Assembly: GCA_903929035.1 (NCBI GenBank)
Contig: CAIYTF010000057.1
Location: 1 to 48,709 of the forward strand
Origin: an uncultured Ignavibacteriales bacterium
Lineage (GTDB): Bacteria; Bacteroidota; Ignavibacteria; Ignavibacteriales; Ignavibacteriaceae
DNA length: 48,709 nucleotides
Direction of reading: 5' to 3'
In this document: positions 1 to 45,198 of the stretch, piece by piece
Layout of the letters: each line of letters starts with the position of its first letter
Position numbering within the stretch: the first letter of the stretch is position 1
Translations under genes and position numbers: made by a program
The notes under the pieces: generated by a model
Seen by the model: only the letters and a program-made list of their open reading frames with translations
The model's database searches: none
Told to the model about the DNA's origin: nothing

Positions 1-203
1 ATCCGGTATAATCAGTAACTTTTTGGCAATATTGAGTGGTAAGTTCGCCTCCTACGGAGACGAGAGAGTAAACTCTGCACGTTTTACCGTGAGCATCGCG
101 CCGCTTCTCGCGGCACTTGCTCACGGTTATTCAAATTATACTCCTTTGGAGTATCGCCGTGAGCATTCCATTTACTTTGTATCGGCATACTATTCAACTA
201 ACG
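1..203. repeat. Modular palindromic intergenic repeat, copy A (cut by window start)
   Basis: This stretch is an inverted copy of much of the element at 44822-45198. The shared parts are the 'cgcctcctacgga' segment (about 46-60), a nested hairpin at 87-126 (CCGTGAG ... CTCACGG enclosing a CCGC/GCGG inner stem), 'ttattcaaat' directly after it, and the small palindrome ACTCCTTTGGAGT at 140-152. The right edge becomes unlike copy B near 200. It lies just beyond the 3' end of the minus-strand chemosensory operon, so it could also act as a transcription stop (inference). No credible protein is encoded. Confidence 0.75.
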
Positions 204-234: not shown

Positions 235-2433
235 TTATTCACTCAATAGTATTTCATTTTCTTTGAGGGCATCCATCATAATATTTATTAACTCACTTTT
301 TATGAATGGCTTTGATAAATAATGCGTACACCCGGCAGCCAAAAAATGATCTTTATCTCCTTTCATAGCATAGGCTGTAATTGCTATGATTGGTATCTGC
401 TTATAAGAAGGTATTTGCCTTATATTTCTAGTTGTTGCAAGACCATTTGGCGAATTAAAACCCAAATATATATCCATCAGTACCGCGTCATACTGTTTTT
501 GTTTCACCTTTTCTAAAGCCTCGTTTTGGTTTGATACTATATCAATATTGCAAAAGTCATTAAGAATTCGCTTGACCAAATCAACAGACACCGGATCATC
601 CTCAACATATAGTACTTCTGCAAGTTTATGATTCGGAGGAAAAGTAATAGAAGGTATTCCAGGTTCCGGACTTTTGCATTTCGGAATATTTTCATCTTCA
701 GCCGATGTTTTGACGGGTATCCGGATAATGAAAGTAGAGCCAACTCCCACTTCACTCTCTAAAGAAATATCTCCATTAAGTTTTTCAATAAAACTTTTAG
801 TTATTGTTAATCCAAGCCCTGTTCCCTCATAACTTCTTGTAAAGCCTTCACTTACTTGACGAAACTCATCCCAAATAATTCCCTGGTTTTCTTTGGCTAT
901 ACCTATCCCTGTATCTATTATCTTAATAATTATGTAACTCTTTGAACCCGAAAACTCAGTGGTGACCTTGATCCTAATTCCACCTTGTTCTGTATATTTA
1001 ACGGCATTGTTAATTAAGTTATTTATTATTTGTCGAAACAACCTTTTATCCGAGATAATTTCCGGTATATTCAAGTCGGTTTCAACAGAAAGAAATAATG
1101 ATTTCTTTTTAGCCGCTTCCATAAATAATTCAGCTATATCATATATTTCCGAAATTATATTTACTTTTGACGCCAGATAATTAAGTTTACCTGCTTCAAT
1201 AACTGATAGATCAATAATAAGATCGAGAGTTTCCATAAGCCTGTGTCCGCTCTTCTTTATTACATTAAGATTATGTATAACTTCTGAATCAGTAACTTCT
1301 TCAAGCAGCATTTCCGAATATCCCAAAATACCTATCATTGGAGTACGTAATTCGTGACTCATATTCGCTAAAAAACTCGATTTTAATCTATTCATTTCTT
1401 CCGCCTGTTCTTTGGCGGCAATTAATTGCATCTCGGATATTTTTTCTTCGGTTATATCTTTAATAATGGCACTGTAATACACTGTATCATCTATTTCCCA
1501 ATATGAAAGGGACACTGCTATCGGGAAAATTGTCCCATCTTTTCTAAGTCCATCTAACTCCACGGTACGTCCCATCATAGTAGATGATAGACTTTTCATA
1601 AATTGAGCATTTTTTTCGTGTAATGATTCAGGCAAAATCACAGATGCAGGCTGGAAAAGGATTTCATCTTCAGTGTAGCCGAATATTTTCTGAGCTGCTC
1701 CATTCCATAAGATGATTTTACCATTAGAATTTCCAATAACAACGGCATCGATTGCCGTCTCAATAATTGAGCGGAACTTAATTTCTGATTTTCTTATATT
1801 TTCTTCGGCAGTTTTCCTGGTTTCAACTTCACGTAACAATAATTCTGTCCGCTCTTCTACCCTTTTATTTAGATGATCATTTAATGTTTCTAATTCGTCC
1901 TGAGTGATTTTGAGAATGCGGTTTTGCTCAATCGCGTTCTCATAAGTTGACATTAATAAGCGAATAAGCTGTTTCTTGCCGGTAGTAAAAATATTCAGCT
2001 TTCCATCCCCTATGCTATAGGCAAACTGTTCTTTTTCATTGCTGTCAAACCTTTCCTCTTGGAAGATAGCAGAGATACGAGTGAGCATATATTCCTTGGA
2101 ATAGGGTTTGGTTAAATAATAGTCGGCTCCAACTTCTAAAGCGCGTAGAATGTTTTCCGATTCGGAAAGAGTGGTTAGAAGTACTACGGGGATTTCACTT
2201 AGTTCAGGGTCTTTTTTAATAGCACTGCATAACCCAAAACCGTCCAATTCCGGCATTACTATATCGCTAATAATAAGATCAGGCTTCATATTACGGCTAA
2301 CCTCTTGGGCTTGTATTCCATTAGCCGCTGTTATGACTTTATAGTTTGCAGATTCGAGTAACTGTTTCAATTTAAGTGCCTGCGTTAAACTATCCTCTAC
2401 AATGACGATAGTTTTCGGATTTTCATTAATCAT
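235..2433 (-). CDS. Hybrid sensor histidine kinase REC-PAS-HisKA-HATPase-REC, last gene of chemosensory operon
   Basis: A cytoplasmic hybrid histidine kinase of 732 residues. There is no signal peptide or membrane segment. Domains in order: N-terminal receiver (about 8-125, phospho-acceptor Asp near 57 in 'DLIISDIVMPELDGFG'), linker with a coiled coil (about 155-215), PAS (about 218-332), HisKA with the phospho-His in 'SHELRTP' (near 360), HATPase with 'DTGIGI' and 'GTGLGLTI', and a C-terminal receiver (about 610-730, 'VLMDIYLG'). The start is placed at ATG 2433, behind AGGAG, rather than the GTG at 2445, which would overlap the Shine-Dalgarno. It lies 17 bases after cheB in the same direction, so it is probably the output or partner of the CheA encoded upstream. 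In Wsp clusters this slot holds the diguanylate cyclase WspR; here there is no GGDEF domain. The final output is not visible in the window. Confidence 0.93.
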   Translation of the reverse strand: MINENPKTIVIVEDSLTQALKLKQLLESANYKVITAANGIQAQEVSRNMKPDLIISDIVMPELDGFGLCSAIKKDPELSEIPVVLLTTLSESENILRALEVGADYYLTKPYSKEYMLTRISAIFQEERFDSNEKEQFAYSIGDGKLNIFTTGKKQLIRLLMSTYENAIEQNRILKITQDELETLNDHLNKRVEERTELLLREVETRKTAEENIRKSEIKFRSIIETAIDAVVIGNSNGKIILWNGAAQKIFGYTEDEILFQPASVILPESLHEKNAQFMKSLSSTMMGRTVELDGLRKDGTIFPIAVSLSYWEIDDTVYYSAIIKDITEEKISEMQLIAAKEQAEEMNRLKSSFLANMSHELRTPMIGILGYSEMLLEEVTDSEVIHNLNVIKKSGHRLMETLDLIIDLSVIEAGKLNYLASKVNIISEIYDIAELFMEAAKKKSLFLSVETDLNIPEIISDKRLFRQIINNLINNAVKYTEQGGIRIKVTTEFSGSKSYIIIKIIDTGIGIAKENQGIIWDEFRQVSEGFTRSYEGTGLGLTITKSFIEKLNGDISLESEVGVGSTFIIRIPVKTSAEDENIPKCKSPEPGIPSITFPPNHKLAEVLYVEDDPVSVDLVKRILNDFCNIDIVSNQNEALEKVKQKQYDAVLMDIYLGFNSPNGLATTRNIRQIPSYKQIPIIAITAYAMKGDKDHFLAAGCTHYLSKPFIKSELINIMMDALKENEILLSE

Positions 2434-2450
2434 ACTATTCTTCACTCCTA

Positions 2451-3533
2451 TTATATTTTCTCGGGCAATGGTTCTTTACCGTTTATTAGGGATATTAAAG
2501 TTGCAGCTATTTTATCAACCGGAAGTATCATCACTGCACCTCCAAGTTGTATCGCTTCATTAGGCATTCCAAAAACAACACAACTTTCACTATCTTGAGC
2601 AATAGTTACAGACCCTTGTTCTCTCATTAATTTCAACTCTTTCGCGCCGTCATTTCCCATACCGCTTAGTATCACTCCAACAGCATTGCCGCCTATTACT
2701 TTAGCTACATTCTCAAAAAGATGCGATACGGAAGAAATGCCTAAATCATCTTTACACTTAACACATAAAATTCTTTTCCCTGTAATATCAACTCCTAAAT
2801 TAAATCCATCCGGTGATAAATACGCGATACCGGCACTGATGTATTCATTGTTATAAGCTACCTTAACAGTAAAACCGGTTGTCGATGTTAACCATTCAGC
2901 AAATCCGTTAATAAATCCATAAGCAATATGCTGTATAATTAAAATCGGTACCCTTAAATTCTTTGGTAATCCAAAAAGTATTTTTTGAATAGCACCAGGA
3001 CCTCCTGTTGAGGCTCCAATCGCGATAAGCCGAACATCTGCATTATTATATCTTGTCCCAATATTTTCAGATACCGGATTCGAAAGAAGCCCATTTTTTG
3101 CAAAACGCTCTTTTTTTGCAATTTTTTTCTCAACCTTTATCGCCGCCATAAGTTTTATTGTTACCCTGAGATCTAATGAAAGCCTGTCAAAATCCGGATG
3201 TGTTGGTGCAGGAGGTCTGTTAACCGCTGTTAATGCACCAGCCTCGATTATCTTGAATACAACAGAAATCTCTTTGGTATTTGTTGTTCCGCTTACAACA
3301 ACAATAGGTGTTGGGCGTGTTTCCATAATTCTGCGGGTAGTTTCATATCCGTCCATTTCCGGCATTTGAAGATCCATTGAAATCACATCCGGTTTGTTCC
3401 GAAGTGTTAATTCAACTGCCTCCGCGCCATTGTTGGCAATTCCAACTACCTGAATTTCCTTATCCTGACTATAAATATGATTGAGTAACTTTTGAGCTAC
3501 TATCGAATCATCCACTATAAGTACCCTTACCAC
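2451..3533 (-). CDS. cheB: Chemotaxis response regulator protein-glutamate methylesterase CheB
   Basis: A receiver fused to a CheB methylesterase domain, 360 residues, the normal length. The receiver has the acidic pocket 'VDDS' (8-9) and phospho-acceptor Asp54 in 'MDLQMPEMDG'. The catalytic triad of the esterase is visible as Ser175 ('GASTGGPG'), His202 ('IIQHI') and Asp295 ('SGMGNDGA'). In the family it removes methyl groups from receptor glutamates and is activated by phosphorylation from CheA. The start is a GTG at 3533 with GGAG five bases upstream. The gene follows cheA after 13 bases and fills the WspF position of a Wsp-like operon. The linker between domains (about 120-165) is long and lysine-rich. 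Confidence 0.96.
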   Translation of the reverse strand: MVRVLIVDDSIVAQKLLNHIYSQDKEIQVVGIANNGAEAVELTLRNKPDVISMDLQMPEMDGYETTRRIMETRPTPIVVVSGTTNTKEISVVFKIIEAGALTAVNRPPAPTHPDFDRLSLDLRVTIKLMAAIKVEKKIAKKERFAKNGLLSNPVSENIGTRYNNADVRLIAIGASTGGPGAIQKILFGLPKNLRVPILIIQHIAYGFINGFAEWLTSTTGFTVKVAYNNEYISAGIAYLSPDGFNLGVDITGKRILCVKCKDDLGISSVSHLFENVAKVIGGNAVGVILSGMGNDGAKELKLMREQGSVTIAQDSESCVVFGMPNEAIQLGGAVMILPVDKIAATLISLINGKEPLPEKI

Positions 3534-3546
3534 TAAGACTCCTTTT

Positions 3547-5829
3547 TTAAATTAATCTGCTTACAATTTCAAGCAGGTTGTCCTGATCAAAACCTTTTTT
3601 AACTAAATACGCGTTCGCGCCAGCGTCAATTCCTCTTTCTCTATCTTCCCGGGACTCAAGAGATGTTACTAGAACAACGGGAATCCCTGTCAGCCTTTTA
3701 TCACTCCGTACTTTTTCTGTTAAAATAAACCCGTTCATCCTGGGCATATCCACATCAGAAACAAGCAGATTGAAGTCTCCATATACTAATTGTTCAAAAG
3801 CATCCGCGCCGTTCATAGCCGTCTTAACATCATAGCCGGCGGATTCTAAAATATTCTTTAGCAGCAGGCGGGATGTAAGCGAATCTTCCGCGACAAGAAT
3901 TTTTCTTTTTTTTGCAAGGCTTTCATTTCCATCAATATATTTATTAATTCCAACATTATACTTTGTATGGACTGCTGTATTCAGTAATCCTAAAGCGTCA
4001 AGTATAAGCACCAGTTTACCGTCACCAAGTGCTGCCGCGCCAATCACATCCTTGACTTGAAGTAATTGACGACCAAGATTTTTAACCAATAATTCTTGCT
4101 CTCCAATAATCTCATCCACTATAAAAGCAATTTTCACGCCCGATGAATGCAAAATAACGATATTTCTTTTATCAGACACATCAACAAAGTGCTTTGACCG
4201 CGGGGAACTTATTACATCGCAGAGATTAACGAGTGAAATCATCTCTCCGTTTACATTGATAACCTCGCGGTTTTCCATCGTGGTTATATTATCAATTTTG
4301 ATAAGTAATACGCGTTCAATATTTGCCGAGGGAAGAATATATAATTGCTTATTGGTACTTACCAAGACACCTCTAAACGCGGCCAGTCGAATGGGTAATG
4401 TAAGAGTAAATGTTGTTCCAATATCTTTTTTAGTCTCAAAAGTTATGTTCCCCCCTAGTTTTTCCGCAGTCTCCCGCACTATTGCCAGCCCTAAACCCCG
4501 CCCCGATATATCGGTGATCATTGTTTTGGTTGATATTCCGGAAAGGAAAATAAAAGGTAATAATTCAATATCGGAAAGCTTATCTAATTTTTCATCAGGA
4601 ATAATCTTATTTTTCTTAAAGGTTTCCCTTAATTTGTTTGCATCAATACCAGAACCATTGTCAGCTAGTTTTATTTCAACATACTGACCGCTTTTCTGAG
4701 AAACGCTTATTTTAATAGATGCATTGGGAGATTTACCTTTATTAATTCTCACTGTCGGGGTCTCAATCCCGTGATCAATACAGTTCCTGATAAGGTGTAT
4801 GAGGGGTGCCTTGATCTCGTCAAGAATGCGCTTATCAACATCAATTTCATCAACATCAAACTCTATGTCAATCTGCTTGCCTTGATCGTTGGAAAGATCC
4901 CTCACAATTTTTGGGAGACCATCCATTGCAGAAGAAAATGGCAGCATTAACAATTTTTTTACTCCCCAAAATAAACTATCTACCTGCATACCAACTGTTT
5001 GTGCATAGTGTTCCGAGAACCGTGAAAGATTTGATATTCTATTATTTATGGACTTAATAAAGGTGAAATTATTCTCGTTCGATTGTACAATTTTTTCCGT
5101 AATTGGAGTAAAATTTGTAAGTCCTGCTTTGTTTTCAGATACTTTTTGTTTTTGCGACCGCCGAACGTATCTTACGAATTTTTGATGTTTTTGCACTTCT
5201 TTTTGATAGAAAGAAATATCTCTGCATAAATTTATTAATTCCAAATTCTGCTGATGCGCCATCAATTTTATCGCGCGTAGTTCCTCTACCTGATTCATTA
5301 GGTTATCCAGAGTTGCTAAAGAAACCCTAATTGTATTATTTCCACCGGACAATTCGGGTAATTCTTTTTTATTATCTTCCTTTATTGGAGCCGGTATTGG
5401 AGCAACCGGTGTAAATATTCCGGTTGCTGCCTTGTTCAAGGCTTCCAATAAAATCGCGGAACTTGATTTTGCTTGTATTGCTGCTTCAGCGGTTGCCGCG
5501 TGAATAAGATTTTTTATACAATCAACACTCCCGAACAAGATTTCAATTAGTTCAGGTACCGGATTCAATTCTTTTCTTTTTAAAAGCCCGAATATACTTT
5601 CCGCTGAATGACAAATTCTCTCTACATCAGTCCTGTCTATACTTCTAGCCGCCCCTTTTAGACTATGGTATTCTCTGAATAAAGCTTCAACTATTGAATC
5701 GCGATTTATGCCGGCATCGACCTTTTCAAGCTGCATTAAGCCATCGGTTAACCGCTGTATTCTTTCTGCAGATTCAATATTAAATGCTTCAACAAGTTCT
5801 TTAAGAAGCATTTCCTGTTTTGTTGCCAC
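3547..5829 (-). CDS. cheA: Hybrid chemotaxis histidine kinase CheA with C-terminal receiver (WspE-like)
   Basis: A kinase of 760 residues with Hpt, HATPase, CheW-like and receiver domains. The Hpt domain has phospho-acceptor His55 in 'EYHSLKGAAR'. A linker and helical dimerisation region (about 160-290) comes next, then the ATPase domain ('HLIRNCIDHGIE', 'LADNGSGID', 'GRGLGLAIV'), a CheW-like coupling domain (about 480-620) and a C-terminal receiver ('KILVAEDS', phospho-acceptor in 'SDVDMPRMNG'). This architecture is typical of WspE/FrzE-type kinases rather than flagellar CheA, which lacks the fused receiver. No separate P2 CheY-binding domain is obvious. The start is GTG at 5829, two bases before the end of the receptor gene, so the two are probably translationally coupled. 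Likely phosphate targets are its own receiver, CheB and the hybrid kinase downstream (inference). Confidence 0.95.
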   Translation of the reverse strand: MATKQEMLLKELVEAFNIESAERIQRLTDGLMQLEKVDAGINRDSIVEALFREYHSLKGAARSIDRTDVERICHSAESIFGLLKRKELNPVPELIEILFGSVDCIKNLIHAATAEAAIQAKSSSAILLEALNKAATGIFTPVAPIPAPIKEDNKKELPELSGGNNTIRVSLATLDNLMNQVEELRAIKLMAHQQNLELINLCRDISFYQKEVQKHQKFVRYVRRSQKQKVSENKAGLTNFTPITEKIVQSNENNFTFIKSINNRISNLSRFSEHYAQTVGMQVDSLFWGVKKLLMLPFSSAMDGLPKIVRDLSNDQGKQIDIEFDVDEIDVDKRILDEIKAPLIHLIRNCIDHGIETPTVRINKGKSPNASIKISVSQKSGQYVEIKLADNGSGIDANKLRETFKKNKIIPDEKLDKLSDIELLPFIFLSGISTKTMITDISGRGLGLAIVRETAEKLGGNITFETKKDIGTTFTLTLPIRLAAFRGVLVSTNKQLYILPSANIERVLLIKIDNITTMENREVINVNGEMISLVNLCDVISSPRSKHFVDVSDKRNIVILHSSGVKIAFIVDEIIGEQELLVKNLGRQLLQVKDVIGAAALGDGKLVLILDALGLLNTAVHTKYNVGINKYIDGNESLAKKRKILVAEDSLTSRLLLKNILESAGYDVKTAMNGADAFEQLVYGDFNLLVSDVDMPRMNGFILTEKVRSDKRLTGIPVVLVTSLESREDRERGIDAGANAYLVKKGFDQDNLLEIVSRLI

Positions 5830-5830
5830 T

Positions 5831-7765
5831 TTAAGCCTTAGACTGATTTATTTGTTCTATAATATTCTGGCCTAAGATAGATAGATTTTTTGCCGCGGTT
5901 TCAGCCTGTTGAGTGCCTATCACATTCTGCATCATTGCCTGTTTGATACTATCAAAAGCTATTGCAACCTGATCTATGCCAGCGAGCTGTTCTTCGCTTG
6001 TGGATAAAATTTGTTCCGCTGCACTTGCTGTTTCAACAATACTCTCAGCTAATGACCGAATAGCCTCGCGTGATAGCTGAGACTGCTTAACTCCAATATC
6101 CACCGTTTTCATTACCTGTTCCGTTCCCAAAACAGTGCTGTTAATCGTTTTTTGAACATCCATTAATATTGTTCTGGTTTGTGCTGAAGCCTGTTTAGCC
6201 TGCAGAGCTAAACTTTTTACCTCTTGGGCTACCACGCCAAATCCCTTACCGTATTCACCTGCTTTTGCAGCTTCAATACCGGCATTTACGGACAGCATAT
6301 TGACTTGTTCGGCAATATCGTTAACTGTAGCAGCAATTTCGCCAATAGCCTGACTTTGTTCGCTTAATTGAACAACAGTTTCATCTATTGTTTCCATTTG
6401 TTCTTTTACTAAATTCATCCCGTCAATGGTCTGCTCAACGGCTTCCTTACCTTTGGCAGATATTTGCGCGGCACTTTGGGCGGTTTCAGTAACAGTCTTT
6501 GCCATTTTAGCAGCAAGATGAGATGTCTGTCTAACCTCACTCATAGATGCTGATGTTTCGCTAATGGCAGATGCTGTTTGAGTTGAGCCGGCAGCAACTT
6601 CTGTGGTAGTGGCTAATATTTGGTTTGCAGAAGAAGCAAGAATACTTGCAGCTTCGAGAAGCTGCTGATTTTTACCAATCAATTCTTTGGCACGATCCTC
6701 AACTCTTAATTCAAGAGTATTATTCAATTCTTTCATTTCCTCGTCCAAACGCTTCTGAATAGTAACATCGCGGGCAGCAGCAAAGCTGCCGATTACTTTT
6801 CCATCCTTATCTTTATAAACATTCGCGTTATAAAGCACGTGGGTGATTTGACCTCCGGCTCCGCGAATCGAAAGCGGATAATCGGTTACCGAACCTTCAT
6901 CAAAAACTTTTTTATAACCTGCTCGCGCTTTCTCCGGATCCGTAAAATAGTCTGAAAAATTTGTACCAATAAGAGTTTCAATGGACCTGCCCGTTATCCT
7001 TAGTGTTGCTCCGTTAACATCGGTAATTTTTCCTTCGGGGCTGATTGTTAGAAGCGGGTCTTGGCTTGCCTCGATTAAATTCCGCGTATATATTCTTGTT
7101 TGGTCGTTTTCTCTTATAAGGCGGCTCATTGAAACAGCAACATACAGCCCCATCCCTAAGGAAAATATTCCTGATAGTATAAGAACAGTAAGAGCTATTG
7201 ATTTCTGCTCTTCAATATTTTGCAGGTTATTATTAAATGTCTGCTGCGAATGTGACTGATTTTCAACAAGAATCTCCCGTATTTTTTCATATCGAATTTT
7301 CAATTCACTGAACATTGCAAGATTCGCTTTTCTCCCTGTACCTCGAAATATGAACTTAAGTTCTTCATCGCGAGCTTCTGTATAATTACTAAACTCAGTC
7401 CAAAAATTTGAAAGGAGCTTTATCCCGATAGTGTCGTGTTCTGTTTCATTTATTTTTTGAGCCTCTTGCCATAGTAATTTGGTAAACTGAGTCTTTTCCT
7501 CGATACTCTTAATAATCTTGTGAGCATTTGTTAAATCCTCGATAACCAAAAGGCTAAGCAAATCGCCCTGCATTTTATTCATCGCGGCTTTTAATTCAAT
7601 TGTACCTGTTACCTCTCTGAAGGTTAATTCGGTATTTTTCTTGTATGAATTGGATATGGATAACAAGGTAACAAATCCCGTTAAAGTAAGAACCACGATT
7701 AGTACAATTAGCGCGCCAAATCCAATATAAACTCTTGTGTTTAAGTTGAAATTTCTTTTTTTCAT
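5831..7765 (-). CDS. Methyl-accepting chemotaxis protein with periplasmic sensor and cytoplasmic PAS
   Basis: A 644-residue membrane chemoreceptor. Transmembrane segments are at about 13-36 and 189-212, enclosing a mostly helical periplasmic domain of about 150 residues (four-helix-bundle type). The PAS domain at about 225-340 replaces the usual HAMP; I see no HAMP between the second membrane segment and PAS. A coiled coil (about 335-375) leads to the signalling domain, whose hairpin tip is 'NMLSVNAGIEAAKAGEYGKG' near 489-508, close to the canonical receptor tip. It is the only receptor gene in the operon and presumably clusters with the two CheW proteins and CheA encoded around it. The ligand is unknown. 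It fills the WspA position, though in Pseudomonas wspA is the first gene and here the receptor follows the CheW-CheR-CheW genes. Confidence 0.95.
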   Translation of the reverse strand: MKKRNFNLNTRVYIGFGALIVLIVVLTLTGFVTLLSISNSYKKNTELTFREVTGTIELKAAMNKMQGDLLSLLVIEDLTNAHKIIKSIEEKTQFTKLLWQEAQKINETEHDTIGIKLLSNFWTEFSNYTEARDEELKFIFRGTGRKANLAMFSELKIRYEKIREILVENQSHSQQTFNNNLQNIEEQKSIALTVLILSGIFSLGMGLYVAVSMSRLIRENDQTRIYTRNLIEASQDPLLTISPEGKITDVNGATLRITGRSIETLIGTNFSDYFTDPEKARAGYKKVFDEGSVTDYPLSIRGAGGQITHVLYNANVYKDKDGKVIGSFAAARDVTIQKRLDEEMKELNNTLELRVEDRAKELIGKNQQLLEAASILASSANQILATTTEVAAGSTQTASAISETSASMSEVRQTSHLAAKMAKTVTETAQSAAQISAKGKEAVEQTIDGMNLVKEQMETIDETVVQLSEQSQAIGEIAATVNDIAEQVNMLSVNAGIEAAKAGEYGKGFGVVAQEVKSLALQAKQASAQTRTILMDVQKTINSTVLGTEQVMKTVDIGVKQSQLSREAIRSLAESIVETASAAEQILSTSEEQLAGIDQVAIAFDSIKQAMMQNVIGTQQAETAAKNLSILGQNIIEQINQSKA

Positions 7766-7835
7766 TTTCCATTCTTTTCTAATTTATTAATAAAATAAAA
7801 ATTTATTATTACTGTTATGTATTTATTCGTAATCA

Positions 7836-8471
7836 TCAAGCCATCTCTCTTTTGGAATTGATTAACATTTTTGGGTCATCGAGTAATTTACCGGCATTGA
7901 GAACTACCATCGGGTCATTAGTTACACCAAGTAAATACTGTTCCCTTAGTCCTGTAAGGGTTGGAAGTGCTTTTTGTAATCGACTGCTGTCAATTTCCTT
8001 TATTCCCTCAACAGTATCAACAAGAATACCAAATTCCAAATGATCTTTCCGTAGAATTATGACTTTATTCAATTCTGTTAAGCCCTTCTCTGCCAAATCA
8101 AAAAACTTTTTCAATTCAATAACCGAGACTATCTTTCCGCGAACACTTATTATACCCAAAACAAAATCAGGTGTATTTGGTACGGGAACAATATCTGTAA
8201 GCGGGTAAACTTCACTGACATAGCAGGACTCTACTGCATAAGTTTCATAGGCAAGCGTAAAAATTACAAGTTCAATAAGCTCAACCGCCGAACTGCTTAC
8301 AGGCAGTTTGGCAAATTTTTCAGCCCTCTCTGCAAGTATTTTATTCTTTTCATCAATGGAGGGTTCCCACCCGTGTTCCAATGATTTTAATACAGAATTG
8401 GTATAGGCATAAACACTTTCCCAATCTGTTCTTTTTGCTTTTAATGATTTAGGTTCAAATTTATTTTTCAT
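7836..8471 (-). CDS. cheW: CheW-like coupling protein, long form (211 aa)
   Basis: A chemoreceptor-kinase adaptor. The CheW domain occupies about residues 60-205 ('ELVIFTLAYETYAVES', 'VLGIISVRGKIVSVIELKKF', 'GILVDTVEGI'). The N-terminal extension of about 60 charged residues is longer than in classical CheW (about 150-165 residues). The ATG at 8471 lies just after the cheR stop and is preferred. A TTG at 8486 in the same frame would overlap cheR by 11 bases and cannot be excluded. It is the second of two cheW genes in the operon, as in Wsp clusters (WspB and WspD). A 70-base gap separates it from the receptor gene downstream. Confidence 0.92.
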   Translation of the reverse strand: MKNKFEPKSLKAKRTDWESVYAYTNSVLKSLEHGWEPSIDEKNKILAERAEKFAKLPVSSSAVELIELVIFTLAYETYAVESCYVSEVYPLTDIVPVPNTPDFVLGIISVRGKIVSVIELKKFFDLAEKGLTELNKVIILRKDHLEFGILVDTVEGIKEIDSSRLQKALPTLTGLREQYLLGVTNDPMVVLNAGKLLDDPKMLINSKREMA

Positions 8472-8475
8472 TGTT

Positions 8476-10029
8476 TCATATAGCAATTTTATTTCTAAGT
8501 GACAAAACTATTGCACGTAATTGCCAAGCTGAAATGCCTTCGGAATCATCGACAATCTCATCCTTTTCGCGTTTATGTAGAATTTCTAAAGTATTCTCCA
8601 AATATTTTTTTGATTCACGTTGTTCGCCCCTGTTAAACATCAGTAAACCCAGTGTAAAATGGACAATAGCATAATCCGGATCCAAATATATTGCTTTTTT
8701 ATATAATTTAATGGCTTCATTTATTTTTCCAATTTCCTGCATAATAACACCGTGATAAAAATGATAGATTTTATTGGATTTGTTAAGACAAACAGCTTTG
8801 CGGATATATTCAGCCGCGCTTTCAAGTTGACCAAGGTTCGCGTATGACCTGGCAAGTAACAGCATTAAATCCGGATTTGCGGAAAAATCGCTGCTCCCTG
8901 AAGAAGAACCGGATTGCAGATTTGACAAAAGGTGGACAGTCCTAATATAATCACCCTGTTCAAATGACAGTCTTCCTTTATTATAAATAGAATTTTCTTC
9001 TCCCGATGGTTCTTTGGTCGATAATTGAGGAACAATTACTTTATTTGATAACAAGGCTTTTGTGCTTATTTCTTGATAGAATTTTGTCGGTTTTGATATT
9101 TCTTTTAGCAATGGTCCCTTTTGAAATGTTTCAATTTGGACATTCCTATTATTTTTTACGCGAATGTTATCTTTTCGATAAAAATTACTTTGTCCATATT
9201 TAACTGGTGTAAAGGCTGATTGATTAACAAGATTTGATTCTACCAGACTGACAATGAGCCACCCGCTATCTGTTAAACAGTTGTAAAAATCGTTTACTAT
9301 TCGTTTAATCGAAATTTCTCCAAAATACATCAACACATTCCTGCAAAAGATGATATCAACCGCGTTTCCCCGCGCGAATTGCTCCGCGAATTTATTATTT
9401 GCAAGATTAAGATGAGAAAATGTAACCATTCTTTTTATTTCCCCATTTAGTTCGAATTGATTATTTGAAAGCCTCTTGAAAAACTCAAGTTTGAAAGAGT
9501 TAGAATTTCCCCTGAAAGACCAGCTGCCATATACCCCTTTCCGCGCGCGCTGAAGCACCTTTGGATTAATATCGGTCGCGAGAATTGTAATATCCCATTT
9601 TTCAATATCAGGAATTAGTTTCTTTAATAGTATAGCAATAGTATAAGGTTCTTCACCGCTGCTACATCCGGCGCACCATATCCTGATTTTTCGACCGGAG
9701 TCTTTTCTCTGCTCGATTAGTTGGGATAGTATCCTGCTCTCAAATTCAACTAATCGCTCGGGTTCTCTGAAAAAATATGTCTCTCCTGTTGTTAAATATT
9801 TTGCAAAGACTTCAATTTCTTCGTGGCATAGTTCTTTGGCACTAATATTAGAAAGACATTCTGATGAATCTTTAAAACCCATATCTCTTGCAGCAAGAGA
9901 AAACCCCGTTTCAAGATCCTTGAATCGTTCAGGAGGAAAATGCAGCCCCATCTTAGTTTCGATTATCGTGCTTAATTGCTGTAATTCGGCAAAAGCCAAA
10001 CTGGTTTTAATAGCCACGGACGTTAACAT
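8476..10029 (-). CDS. cheR: Chemotaxis methyltransferase CheR with C-terminal TPR repeats (WspC-like)
   Basis: An SAM-dependent receptor-glutamate methyltransferase of 517 residues. The N-terminal CheR helical domain and methyltransferase core fill about the first 275 residues: 'LTTGETYFFREPERL', SAM motif 'IWCAGCSSGEEPYTIAI', and 'DIIFCRNVLMYF'. A variable linker of about 90 residues follows. At least two to three TPR units then occur around 385-465 ('LLARSYANLGQLESAAEYIR', 'HGVIMQEIGKINEAIKLYKK'). CheR with TPRs is typical of Wsp-type systems. The start is ATG 10029 because a strong GGAGG lies seven bases upstream; an in-frame ATG at 10050 has no such site. The start overlaps the end of the first cheW by seven bases, implying coupled translation. 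Confidence 0.93.
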   Translation of the reverse strand: MLTSVAIKTSLAFAELQQLSTIIETKMGLHFPPERFKDLETGFSLAARDMGFKDSSECLSNISAKELCHEEIEVFAKYLTTGETYFFREPERLVEFESRILSQLIEQRKDSGRKIRIWCAGCSSGEEPYTIAILLKKLIPDIEKWDITILATDINPKVLQRARKGVYGSWSFRGNSNSFKLEFFKRLSNNQFELNGEIKRMVTFSHLNLANNKFAEQFARGNAVDIIFCRNVLMYFGEISIKRIVNDFYNCLTDSGWLIVSLVESNLVNQSAFTPVKYGQSNFYRKDNIRVKNNRNVQIETFQKGPLLKEISKPTKFYQEISTKALLSNKVIVPQLSTKEPSGEENSIYNKGRLSFEQGDYIRTVHLLSNLQSGSSSGSSDFSANPDLMLLLARSYANLGQLESAAEYIRKAVCLNKSNKIYHFYHGVIMQEIGKINEAIKLYKKAIYLDPDYAIVHFTLGLLMFNRGEQRESKKYLENTLEILHKREKDEIVDDSEGISAWQLRAIVLSLRNKIAI

Positions 10030-10469
10030 AGAGCTGCCTCCAACAAACATTCCTCATTAATCGAAAGAAATCTATCAATGTCATGAATCAAAATAATTTG
10101 ATCTTCAAGTGCCATAACGCCGTCAAAATATGGAAGCACCGGAAGAAACTCTTTACTTGGAATTAGTTTTTCTTCCTCATACTCAACTACTCCGGCAACA
10201 TCATCAACAACGATGGCAACTCTTTGTTTTGCTGTATACGCGATAATAATTTTATCATACAGATTTAATTCTTTCTCTTGAAGTCCAAACCGTTTTCGTA
10301 TATTGAGTGTCGGAATAATATTACCTTCAATATTTATTACTCCCATAACAATTTCCGGAGCACTTGGCAGCGGTGTTATTCTCATTACCGGTATAATTCT
10401 TTCAACTTTACTAAGTCGGAGAGCATACTTATTTTTCTCTACGAAAAATACAAAAAGATGGATTTTCAT
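10023..10469 (-). CDS. cheW: CheW-like coupling protein, short form (148 aa), first gene of the operon
   Basis: A single CheW domain covering the full length: 'FFVEKNKYALRLSKVERIIP', 'VMGVINIEGNIIPTLNIRKR' and 'VAIVVDDVAGVV'. It would link the receptor to CheA. It heads the minus-strand chemosensory operon, and the promoter should therefore lie in 10470-10600. I see no convincing promoter box there. The length is ordinary for CheW. The gene overlaps the next one (cheR) by a few bases. Confidence 0.93.
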   Translation of the reverse strand: MKIHLFVFFVEKNKYALRLSKVERIIPVMRITPLPSAPEIVMGVINIEGNIIPTLNIRKRFGLQEKELNLYDKIIIAYTAKQRVAIVVDDVAGVVEYEEEKLIPSKEFLPVLPYFDGVMALEDQIILIHDIDRFLSINEECLLEAALC

Positions 10470-44821: not shown

Positions 44822-45198
44822 CATACCAAACCGATAACAAGTTAAATAAAATATACCGCGTTATTCCGAGTACTCTGAAAGAGTTCAATTTGAATAACCG
44901 TGAGCGAGTGCCGCGAGAAGCGGCGCGATGCTCACGGAAAATGCATAGAACTTACTCTCTCGTATCCGTAGGAGGCGAACTTACCACTCACTATCGCCAA
45001 AAAGTTACTGATATTACACCGGATTTTGGTTGTCCCCTTGCAGGGAACAGGCTCTTGTTCGTTTCCTTTCCGTGAGCTTCTACCGCTTCGCGGCTCGAAA
45101 CTCACGGTTATTCAAATTTTACTCCTTTGGAGTATCGCCCCGAGCATTCCATTTACTTTGTATCGGCATAATACTCAACTTGTTGTCGGTTTGGTATC
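44822..45198. repeat. Modular palindromic element with 23-bp terminal inverted repeats, copy B
   Basis: The ends 44822-44844 and 45176-45198 are reverse complements at 20 of 23 positions. Further in, 'caatttgaataaccgtgag' (44886-44904) matches 'ctcacggttattcaaattt' (45101-45119). Each arm carries a nested hairpin (44898-44937 and 45070-45107), CCGTGAG ... CTCACGG around a GCCGC/GCGGC or CCGC/GCGG stem. The small palindrome ACTCCTTTGGAGT lies at 45121-45133. The core (44938-45069) matches copy A in the opposite direction. Reading frames in it are short and lack family resemblance. Confidence 0.85.

Follow-up and report, generated by a model that had tools for sequence, protein, structure and literature searches.

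Chemosensory clusters of the ACF class of Wuichet and Zhulin encode CheA, CheB, two CheW proteins, a CheR with TPR repeats and a multidomain response regulator. In a survey of cheR-TPR clusters, which were assigned to the ACF family, around 40% of the response regulators contained HisKA-HATPase domains (PMC3447774). The Che3 system of Rhodospirillum centenum comprises a CheA-receiver hybrid (CheA3) and another kinase, CheS3, which has a PAS domain and one or more receivers at its N-terminus. Here, CheA3 phosphorylates REC1 of CheS3, leading to shut-off of CheY3 phosphorylation by CheS3, and the receiver of CheA3 serves as a phosphate sink (PMC3868531). The Wsp systems of Pseudomonas and Burkholderia have the same parts list, ending with a regulator that joins a receiver to an output domain, namely the diguanylate cyclase WspR (structure 3bre). 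No study treating chemosensory CheA in Ignavibacteri* was found in a literature search.

Here, we describe an operon of an uncultured Ignavibacteriales bacterium whose genome (G000; 3.36 Mb, 222 contigs) includes the window, i.e., the whole analysed stretch of 48,709 nucleotides (bases 1-48709 of contig C57), and a second kinase elsewhere in the same genome that shares its input module with the operon kinase.

The seven-gene operon

The operon consists of seven consecutive genes on the minus strand (window 235-10469), separated by 1-70 bp or overlapping, and transcribed in the order CheW, CheR-TPR, CheW, receptor, CheA-receiver, CheB, and a receiver-PAS-HisKA-HATPase-receiver kinase. The first CheW coupling protein of 148 aa (10023..10469; PF01584, 97 bits) is followed by a 524-aa CheR methyltransferase with C-terminal TPR repeats (8476..10050; PF01739, 167 bits; several TPR families), a second CheW coupling protein of 216 aa (7836..8486; PF01584, 95 bits), and a 644-aa chemoreceptor of the type 4HB-PAS-MCPsignal (5831..7765; PF12729, PF00989/PF13426, PF00015). 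CheA (760 aa; 3547..5829) displays Hpt, HATPase_c, CheW, and C-terminal Response_reg domains and a weak match only to the dimerisation domain, and its phosphorylation residues, H55 in the Hpt domain and D692 in the receiver, are invariant in an alignment of 22 sequences. CheB (360 aa; 2451..3533) is a methylesterase (PF01339, 177 bits) with a receiver (PF00072) carrying D54. Finally, the hybrid kinase (736 aa; 235..2445) is composed, in this order, of REC1, a hairpin/helix linker, PAS, HisKA, HATPase, and REC2, and D61 in REC1 (Pfam 13-124), H364 in HisKA, and D658 in REC2 are all present. The seven genes with these positions and domains agree with the earlier note, and all phosphorylation residues were found; its count of three receivers was corrected to four, located in CheA, CheB, and both ends of the kinase.

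CheA, CheB, CheR, CheW, and a receptor are thus all encoded together, and a multidomain response regulator and a CheR-TPR occur in one cluster, two features that, singly or together, mark ACF clusters (PMC3447774). Compared with such clusters, nothing essential differs, and the operon can be classified from its gene content as a plain example of a non-flagellar, ACF-type chemosensory system. None of CheY, CheC, CheD, CheX, and CheZ is encoded among the operon genes visible up to the contig end, and the operon probably controls something other than swimming through the switching of its second kinase. The kinase differs from CheS3 of R. centenum, which is REC-REC-PAS-HWE without a C-terminal receiver, whereas the window kinase is REC-PAS-HisKA-HATPase-REC. 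In addition, R. centenum encodes CheY3 within the Che3 cluster, while the window shows no CheY before the contig end.

The contig end lies close to the kinase, as window base 1 is 234 bp past its stop codon and falls in an interspersed repeat (1..199, minus strand) with 63 matches in the genome. Because the contig stops within this repeat, no gene beyond the kinase is visible, and the kinase cannot be shown to close the operon; the "final slot" assigned to it in the earlier note is therefore not supported. Within the window, copies of this ~200-bp repeat occupy 1-199 and 44871-45180. The repeat often occurs in inverted pairs ~40 bp apart and is strongly foldable as a single strand. The nearest homologous operons break at the kinase too, after kinase residue 313 in a sister species of the same genus (G001) and ~30 residues into a clearly homologous receiver start in a member of the same family (G032). 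On another contig of the sister species (G001:C300; L193 229-3650), a C-terminal fragment of a hybrid kinase, 48% identical to residues 449-731 of the window kinase, is followed by FliL, FliM, and FliN, and this fragment may be the end of the operon kinase of the sister species. A promoter/terminator scan of the region performed no better than chance for promoters.

Terminal regulators in relatives and the comparison with Wsp

The search for the same seven-gene order in relatives, as proposed in the earlier note, was done with CheA across 146 relatives, of which 40 neighbourhoods were read, and the order was found in many of their genomes. Since such synteny recurs in many relatives, the arrangement goes far beyond what chance would produce. 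Among the loci of relatives that fall on the window side of the CheA tree, 25 have a legible terminal slot, and in all 25 it encodes a REC-kinase, in which a receiver at the N-terminus is joined to a kinase core, in some cases with PAS/GAF domains or a C-terminal receiver in addition. Variations include a slot kinase divided between two ORFs (L084), kinases directly after cheA (L072 and L074), and one locus without a regulator in the terminal slot (L091). Furthermore, a single-domain receiver gene follows the kinase in L087, L092, L204, and probably in G032, and the slot holds a GGDEF-EAL regulator at L115, L119, and L122. The earlier note would have taken a homologous cluster with an additional CheY or GGDEF gene shown to be the true target as evidence against its proposal, and this applies in part: homologous operons carry an extra CheY-like receiver or a GGDEF-EAL regulator at these loci, and the window kinase therefore need not be the only target.

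Two further che clusters of the same genome, on contigs C91 and C171, each end in REC-kinase proteins. The C91 operon is interrupted between cheR and the second cheW (L001 6861-10038) by a gene for a C5-cytosine DNA methyltransferase and two ORFs without Pfam matches, an insertion that is possibly a restriction-modification cassette. The C171 cluster (L002 2677-5005) has a fused CheW-CheW and two tandem receiver-kinases after cheB, with HisKA sub-threshold in the first and none detected by Pfam in the second. Beyond these relatives, a scan of the genome collection showed that the order CheW-CheR-CheW-MCP-CheA-CheB-regulator recurs across several phyla. Records from Verrucomicrobia and Nitrospirae have a REC-HK as regulator, as do those from Chloroflexi, where the gene order differs slightly. 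In Nitrosospira, Hydrogenophilales, and Pseudomonas, whose operons belong to the window-side CheA group, the regulator is a REC-...-GGDEF-EAL protein. Common to the terminal regulators of this group is a receiver at their start.

As the earlier note pointed out, the operon resembles Wsp in its parts list, including a regulator that joins a receiver to an output in the last slot, yet the resemblance does not extend to descent. The order in Wsp is MCP-CheW-CheR-CheW-CheA-CheB-WspR, whereas the window operon reads CheW-CheR-CheW-MCP-CheA-CheB-kinase, with the receptor placed between the second CheW and CheA. In the CheA tree, which is unrooted, was made by a quick method, and contains one undisputed Wsp row, a branch with 100% SH-aLRT support divides the 50-row group of the window from the group of Paraburkholderia L159, whose terminal regulator matches WspR (3bre) at 1.6e-134. 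Like Wsp, clusters of this second group begin with the receptor(s), and they mostly end in REC-SpoIIE phosphatases or GGDEF proteins. Receiver-SpoIIE (PP2C) phosphatases end, for instance, the receptor-first clusters at L067 (11784-12965) and L071 (6189-7400), which fall in the same CheA group as Paraburkholderia Wsp. Given the 100% branch, the CheA tree and the gene order indicate a system that is Wsp-like in parts and not Wsp by descent. The statement that the kinase takes the place of a diguanylate cyclase was likewise not upheld, as kinases are the standing occupants of the slot in this lineage and the operon lacks a GGDEF domain. A route through GGDEF and PilZ proteins was considered and rejected, as the single GGDEF match in the genome is degenerate (GRLSER at the motif position), and no PilZ was found in the same genome.

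A shared input module and its copy on a satellite kinase

The first 205 residues of the window kinase (1831..2445, minus strand) are conserved as a unit, consisting of a receiver followed by a predicted beta hairpin and a long helix, and this input module is common to kinase, GGDEF-EAL, and PAS-only terminal regulators of several phyla. The extension behind the receiver ends in a motif like QI..LL.STYE.A...N. AlphaFold2 structural prediction using 18 sequences displayed the receiver, a beta hairpin at residues 138-156, and a single helix of 58 residues (157-214) with a mean pLDDT of 87. The solved structures matching REC1 are plain receiver domains, and none of the matches listed covers the hairpin-helix extension. 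Among the relatives, most matches that include the extension adjoin cheB or cheA, and a minority reside on unlinked kinases, as seen in L200, L201, L202, and L205, where no che cluster lies alongside. A CheA closely related to that of the window is absent from three of the relatives (G022, G042, and G103).

The genome itself encodes such a kinase, here termed the satellite kinase, which is unlinked to che genes (938 aa; contig C127, L195 5910-8726, minus strand) and displays the architecture REC-linker-HisKA-HATPase-REC-REC-Hpt, with H795 in its Hpt domain. Its input module is 72% identical to that of the window kinase, with the C91 kinase as the next best in the genome at 42%, whereas the kinase cores of the two proteins are ~30-35% identical, which argues that the input module alone was copied. 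The copied module has been kept under purifying selection (pN 0.17, pS 0.68). The sister species G001 encodes an orthologous satellite kinase (63% identical overall), and the module tree, {G001 operon kinase, (window kinase, (own satellite, G001 satellite))}, has supports of 99/98, 100/96, and 100/88, indicating that the satellite input derives from the operon kinase of this lineage. In the same tree, the window module is nearer to the satellites than to the operon copy of the sister species, a pattern that may reflect exchange between the operon and satellite loci or their concerted evolution. The satellite kinase is immediately preceded by a further copy of the interspersed repeat (L195 8948-9135, 88% identical). 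It is possible that C127 and C57 are truly adjacent and were mis-joined at this common repeat; bearing on this idea, C127 reads through into tex. The core of the satellite kinase is HK-REC-REC-Hpt, as in Hpt hybrid kinases of the ArcB/BarA type, yet where these kinases have a sensor, it has the CheA-facing receiver module of the che operon kinase. The window genome further differs from R. centenum Che3 in encoding a satellite kinase that bears the input module of the operon kinase.

Two genes lie next to the satellite kinase, encoding a receiver-class III cyclase (REC-Guanylate_cyc) and then a single receiver of 126 aa. The cyclase carries the motifs FLDIVGF, ERIKTIGD, and YDVFGDTVNIASRM, with both metal aspartates as well as the Lys and Asp typical of adenylate cyclases among class III enzymes, and it is thus predicted to be an adenylate cyclase. 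The genome encodes 3 class III cyclases and 5 cNMP-binding proteins. In the sister species, the receiver-cyclase is still beside the satellite kinase, and the single receiver is fused to the kinase C-terminus (60% identical). A related set is found in G032, where a contig opens with a PAS-HK-REC fragment starting at residue 217 and 45% identical to the window kinase. This contig very probably continues the che operon across an assembly gap, and the missing receiver and linker of the kinase fall in that gap. The fragment is followed by a homologous single receiver (68%) and then by a dCache-HAMP-PAS-HK-REC-REC-Hpt kinase. This kinase lies one gene away from the probable operon kinase and shares 61% identity in its core with the satellite kinase. 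Depending on the genus, the same Hpt kinase core is thus found either next to the operon with a periplasmic sensor or joined to a copied receiver that faces CheA. A close match to the REC-cyclase is missing from G032, so that cAMP is not an output that the whole family shares. Elsewhere, the end of a satellite-type REC-Hpt kinase, a single receiver, a receiver-SpoIIE protein, and a receiver-cyclase lie near each other (L210 1-9777; G045:C450) with no che genes alongside, and the output module appears to exist independently of che genes.

Signal flow and alternative explanations

In the signal flow that we infer, the membrane receptor and the two CheW proteins would control CheA, with CheR-TPR and CheB providing adaptation. 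Phosphorylated CheA would pass phosphate to three receivers, namely its own (likely a sink), that of CheB, and REC1 of the operon kinase. REC1 would then, via the hairpin and the continuous helix, switch the PAS-HisKA-HATPase core, which may signal through REC2 to an Hpt protein and on to downstream regulators. CheA would phosphorylate REC1 of the satellite kinase as well, whose C-terminal receivers could pass phosphate through the Hpt domain to the receiver-cyclase and the single receiver. The main reading is therefore that one CheA controls two hybrid kinases, of which one sets cAMP, and we assign it a probability of about 0.5. That the operon kinase itself is a target of CheA is considerably safer, and we regard it as likely. 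The earlier note had proposed that CheA feeds a second kinase, and the anatomy, the synteny, and the precedent of CheA3 acting on REC1 of CheS3 (PMC3868531) agree with this, with the wiring kept at the level of a proposal. The part concerning the satellite kinase is weakened by its lack of linkage to che genes, and a common receiver shows shared ancestry and is no proof that the same CheA is used.

The operon kinase could be the sole CheA target, with the satellite kinase having taken a spare receiver module that is now driven by something else. In R. centenum, Che3 employs a single CheS3 together with a CheY3, and in some relatives the module occurs on kinases whose genomes encode no CheA closely related to that of the window. 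We find this explanation rather unlikely, as the satellite module is under purifying selection and is nearer to that of the window than the operon kinase of the sister species is, and as a related Hpt kinase and single receiver adjoin the probable operon kinase in G032. A more serious possibility, although still short of an even bet, is that REC1 is inhibitory or a sink and thus a brake, with no two-step phosphorelay and with a CheY-like receiver beyond the contig end as output. Here, the R. centenum precedent, in which phosphate from CheA3 on REC1 turns CheS3 off and the CheA3 receiver is a sink (PMC3868531), is matched by the single-domain receivers that follow the kinase in some homologous operons, and control by REC1 may indeed be inhibitory by analogy. 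However, the CheS3 core is of the HWE type without REC2, while HisKA and REC2 in the window kinase suggest a further relay, and the sign of control is not readable from sequence. Such a brake is compatible with the two-kinase model except for the sign and the output gene, and the confidences placed in the two overlap.

The remaining explanations concern the nature of the operon as a whole. If it were a conventional chemotaxis cluster that directs a flagellum or pili, the hybrid kinase would be an accidental neighbour, and the kinase fragment ahead of FliL-FliM-FliN in the sister species, perhaps from its operon kinase, would fit. This is very improbable in view of the kinases in the slot at 25 relatives' loci, the absence of CheY, CheC, CheD, CheX, and CheZ from the operon, the CheR-TPR typical of ACF clusters (PMC3447774), and a separate CheA on contig C79 of the same genome, whose match lacks a receiver. 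We give hardly more than a slight chance to a true Wsp system in which WspR was swapped for a kinase, as the gene order is unlike Wsp, the CheA lies across the 100% branch from that of Paraburkholderia Wsp, and the genome has neither an intact c-di-GMP synthase nor PilZ, even though the parts list is the same and GGDEF-EAL regulators occupy the same slot in the Nitrosospira, Hydrogenophilales, and Pseudomonas operons.

Returning to the two-kinase model, the architecture of the operon is already known, and since the wiring from CheA to a hybrid kinase has been proven in R. centenum, the operon alone adds little. What is new, at moderate confidence, is the shared input module, its copy on a satellite kinase, and a concrete candidate output. 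A tentative extension is that the receiver-hairpin-helix unit might be a portable CheA input module, by which one array could govern several unlinked outputs, including cAMP through a relay from CheA to kinase, Hpt, and cyclase. Most ACF outputs are obscure because the terminal kinase leads nowhere obvious, whereas the sequence here points to a concrete downstream set of an Hpt kinase, a receiver-adenylate cyclase, and a single receiver. Finally, the CheA-facing module is recognisable and can be searched for in any genome, which would allow unlinked CheA targets to be found.
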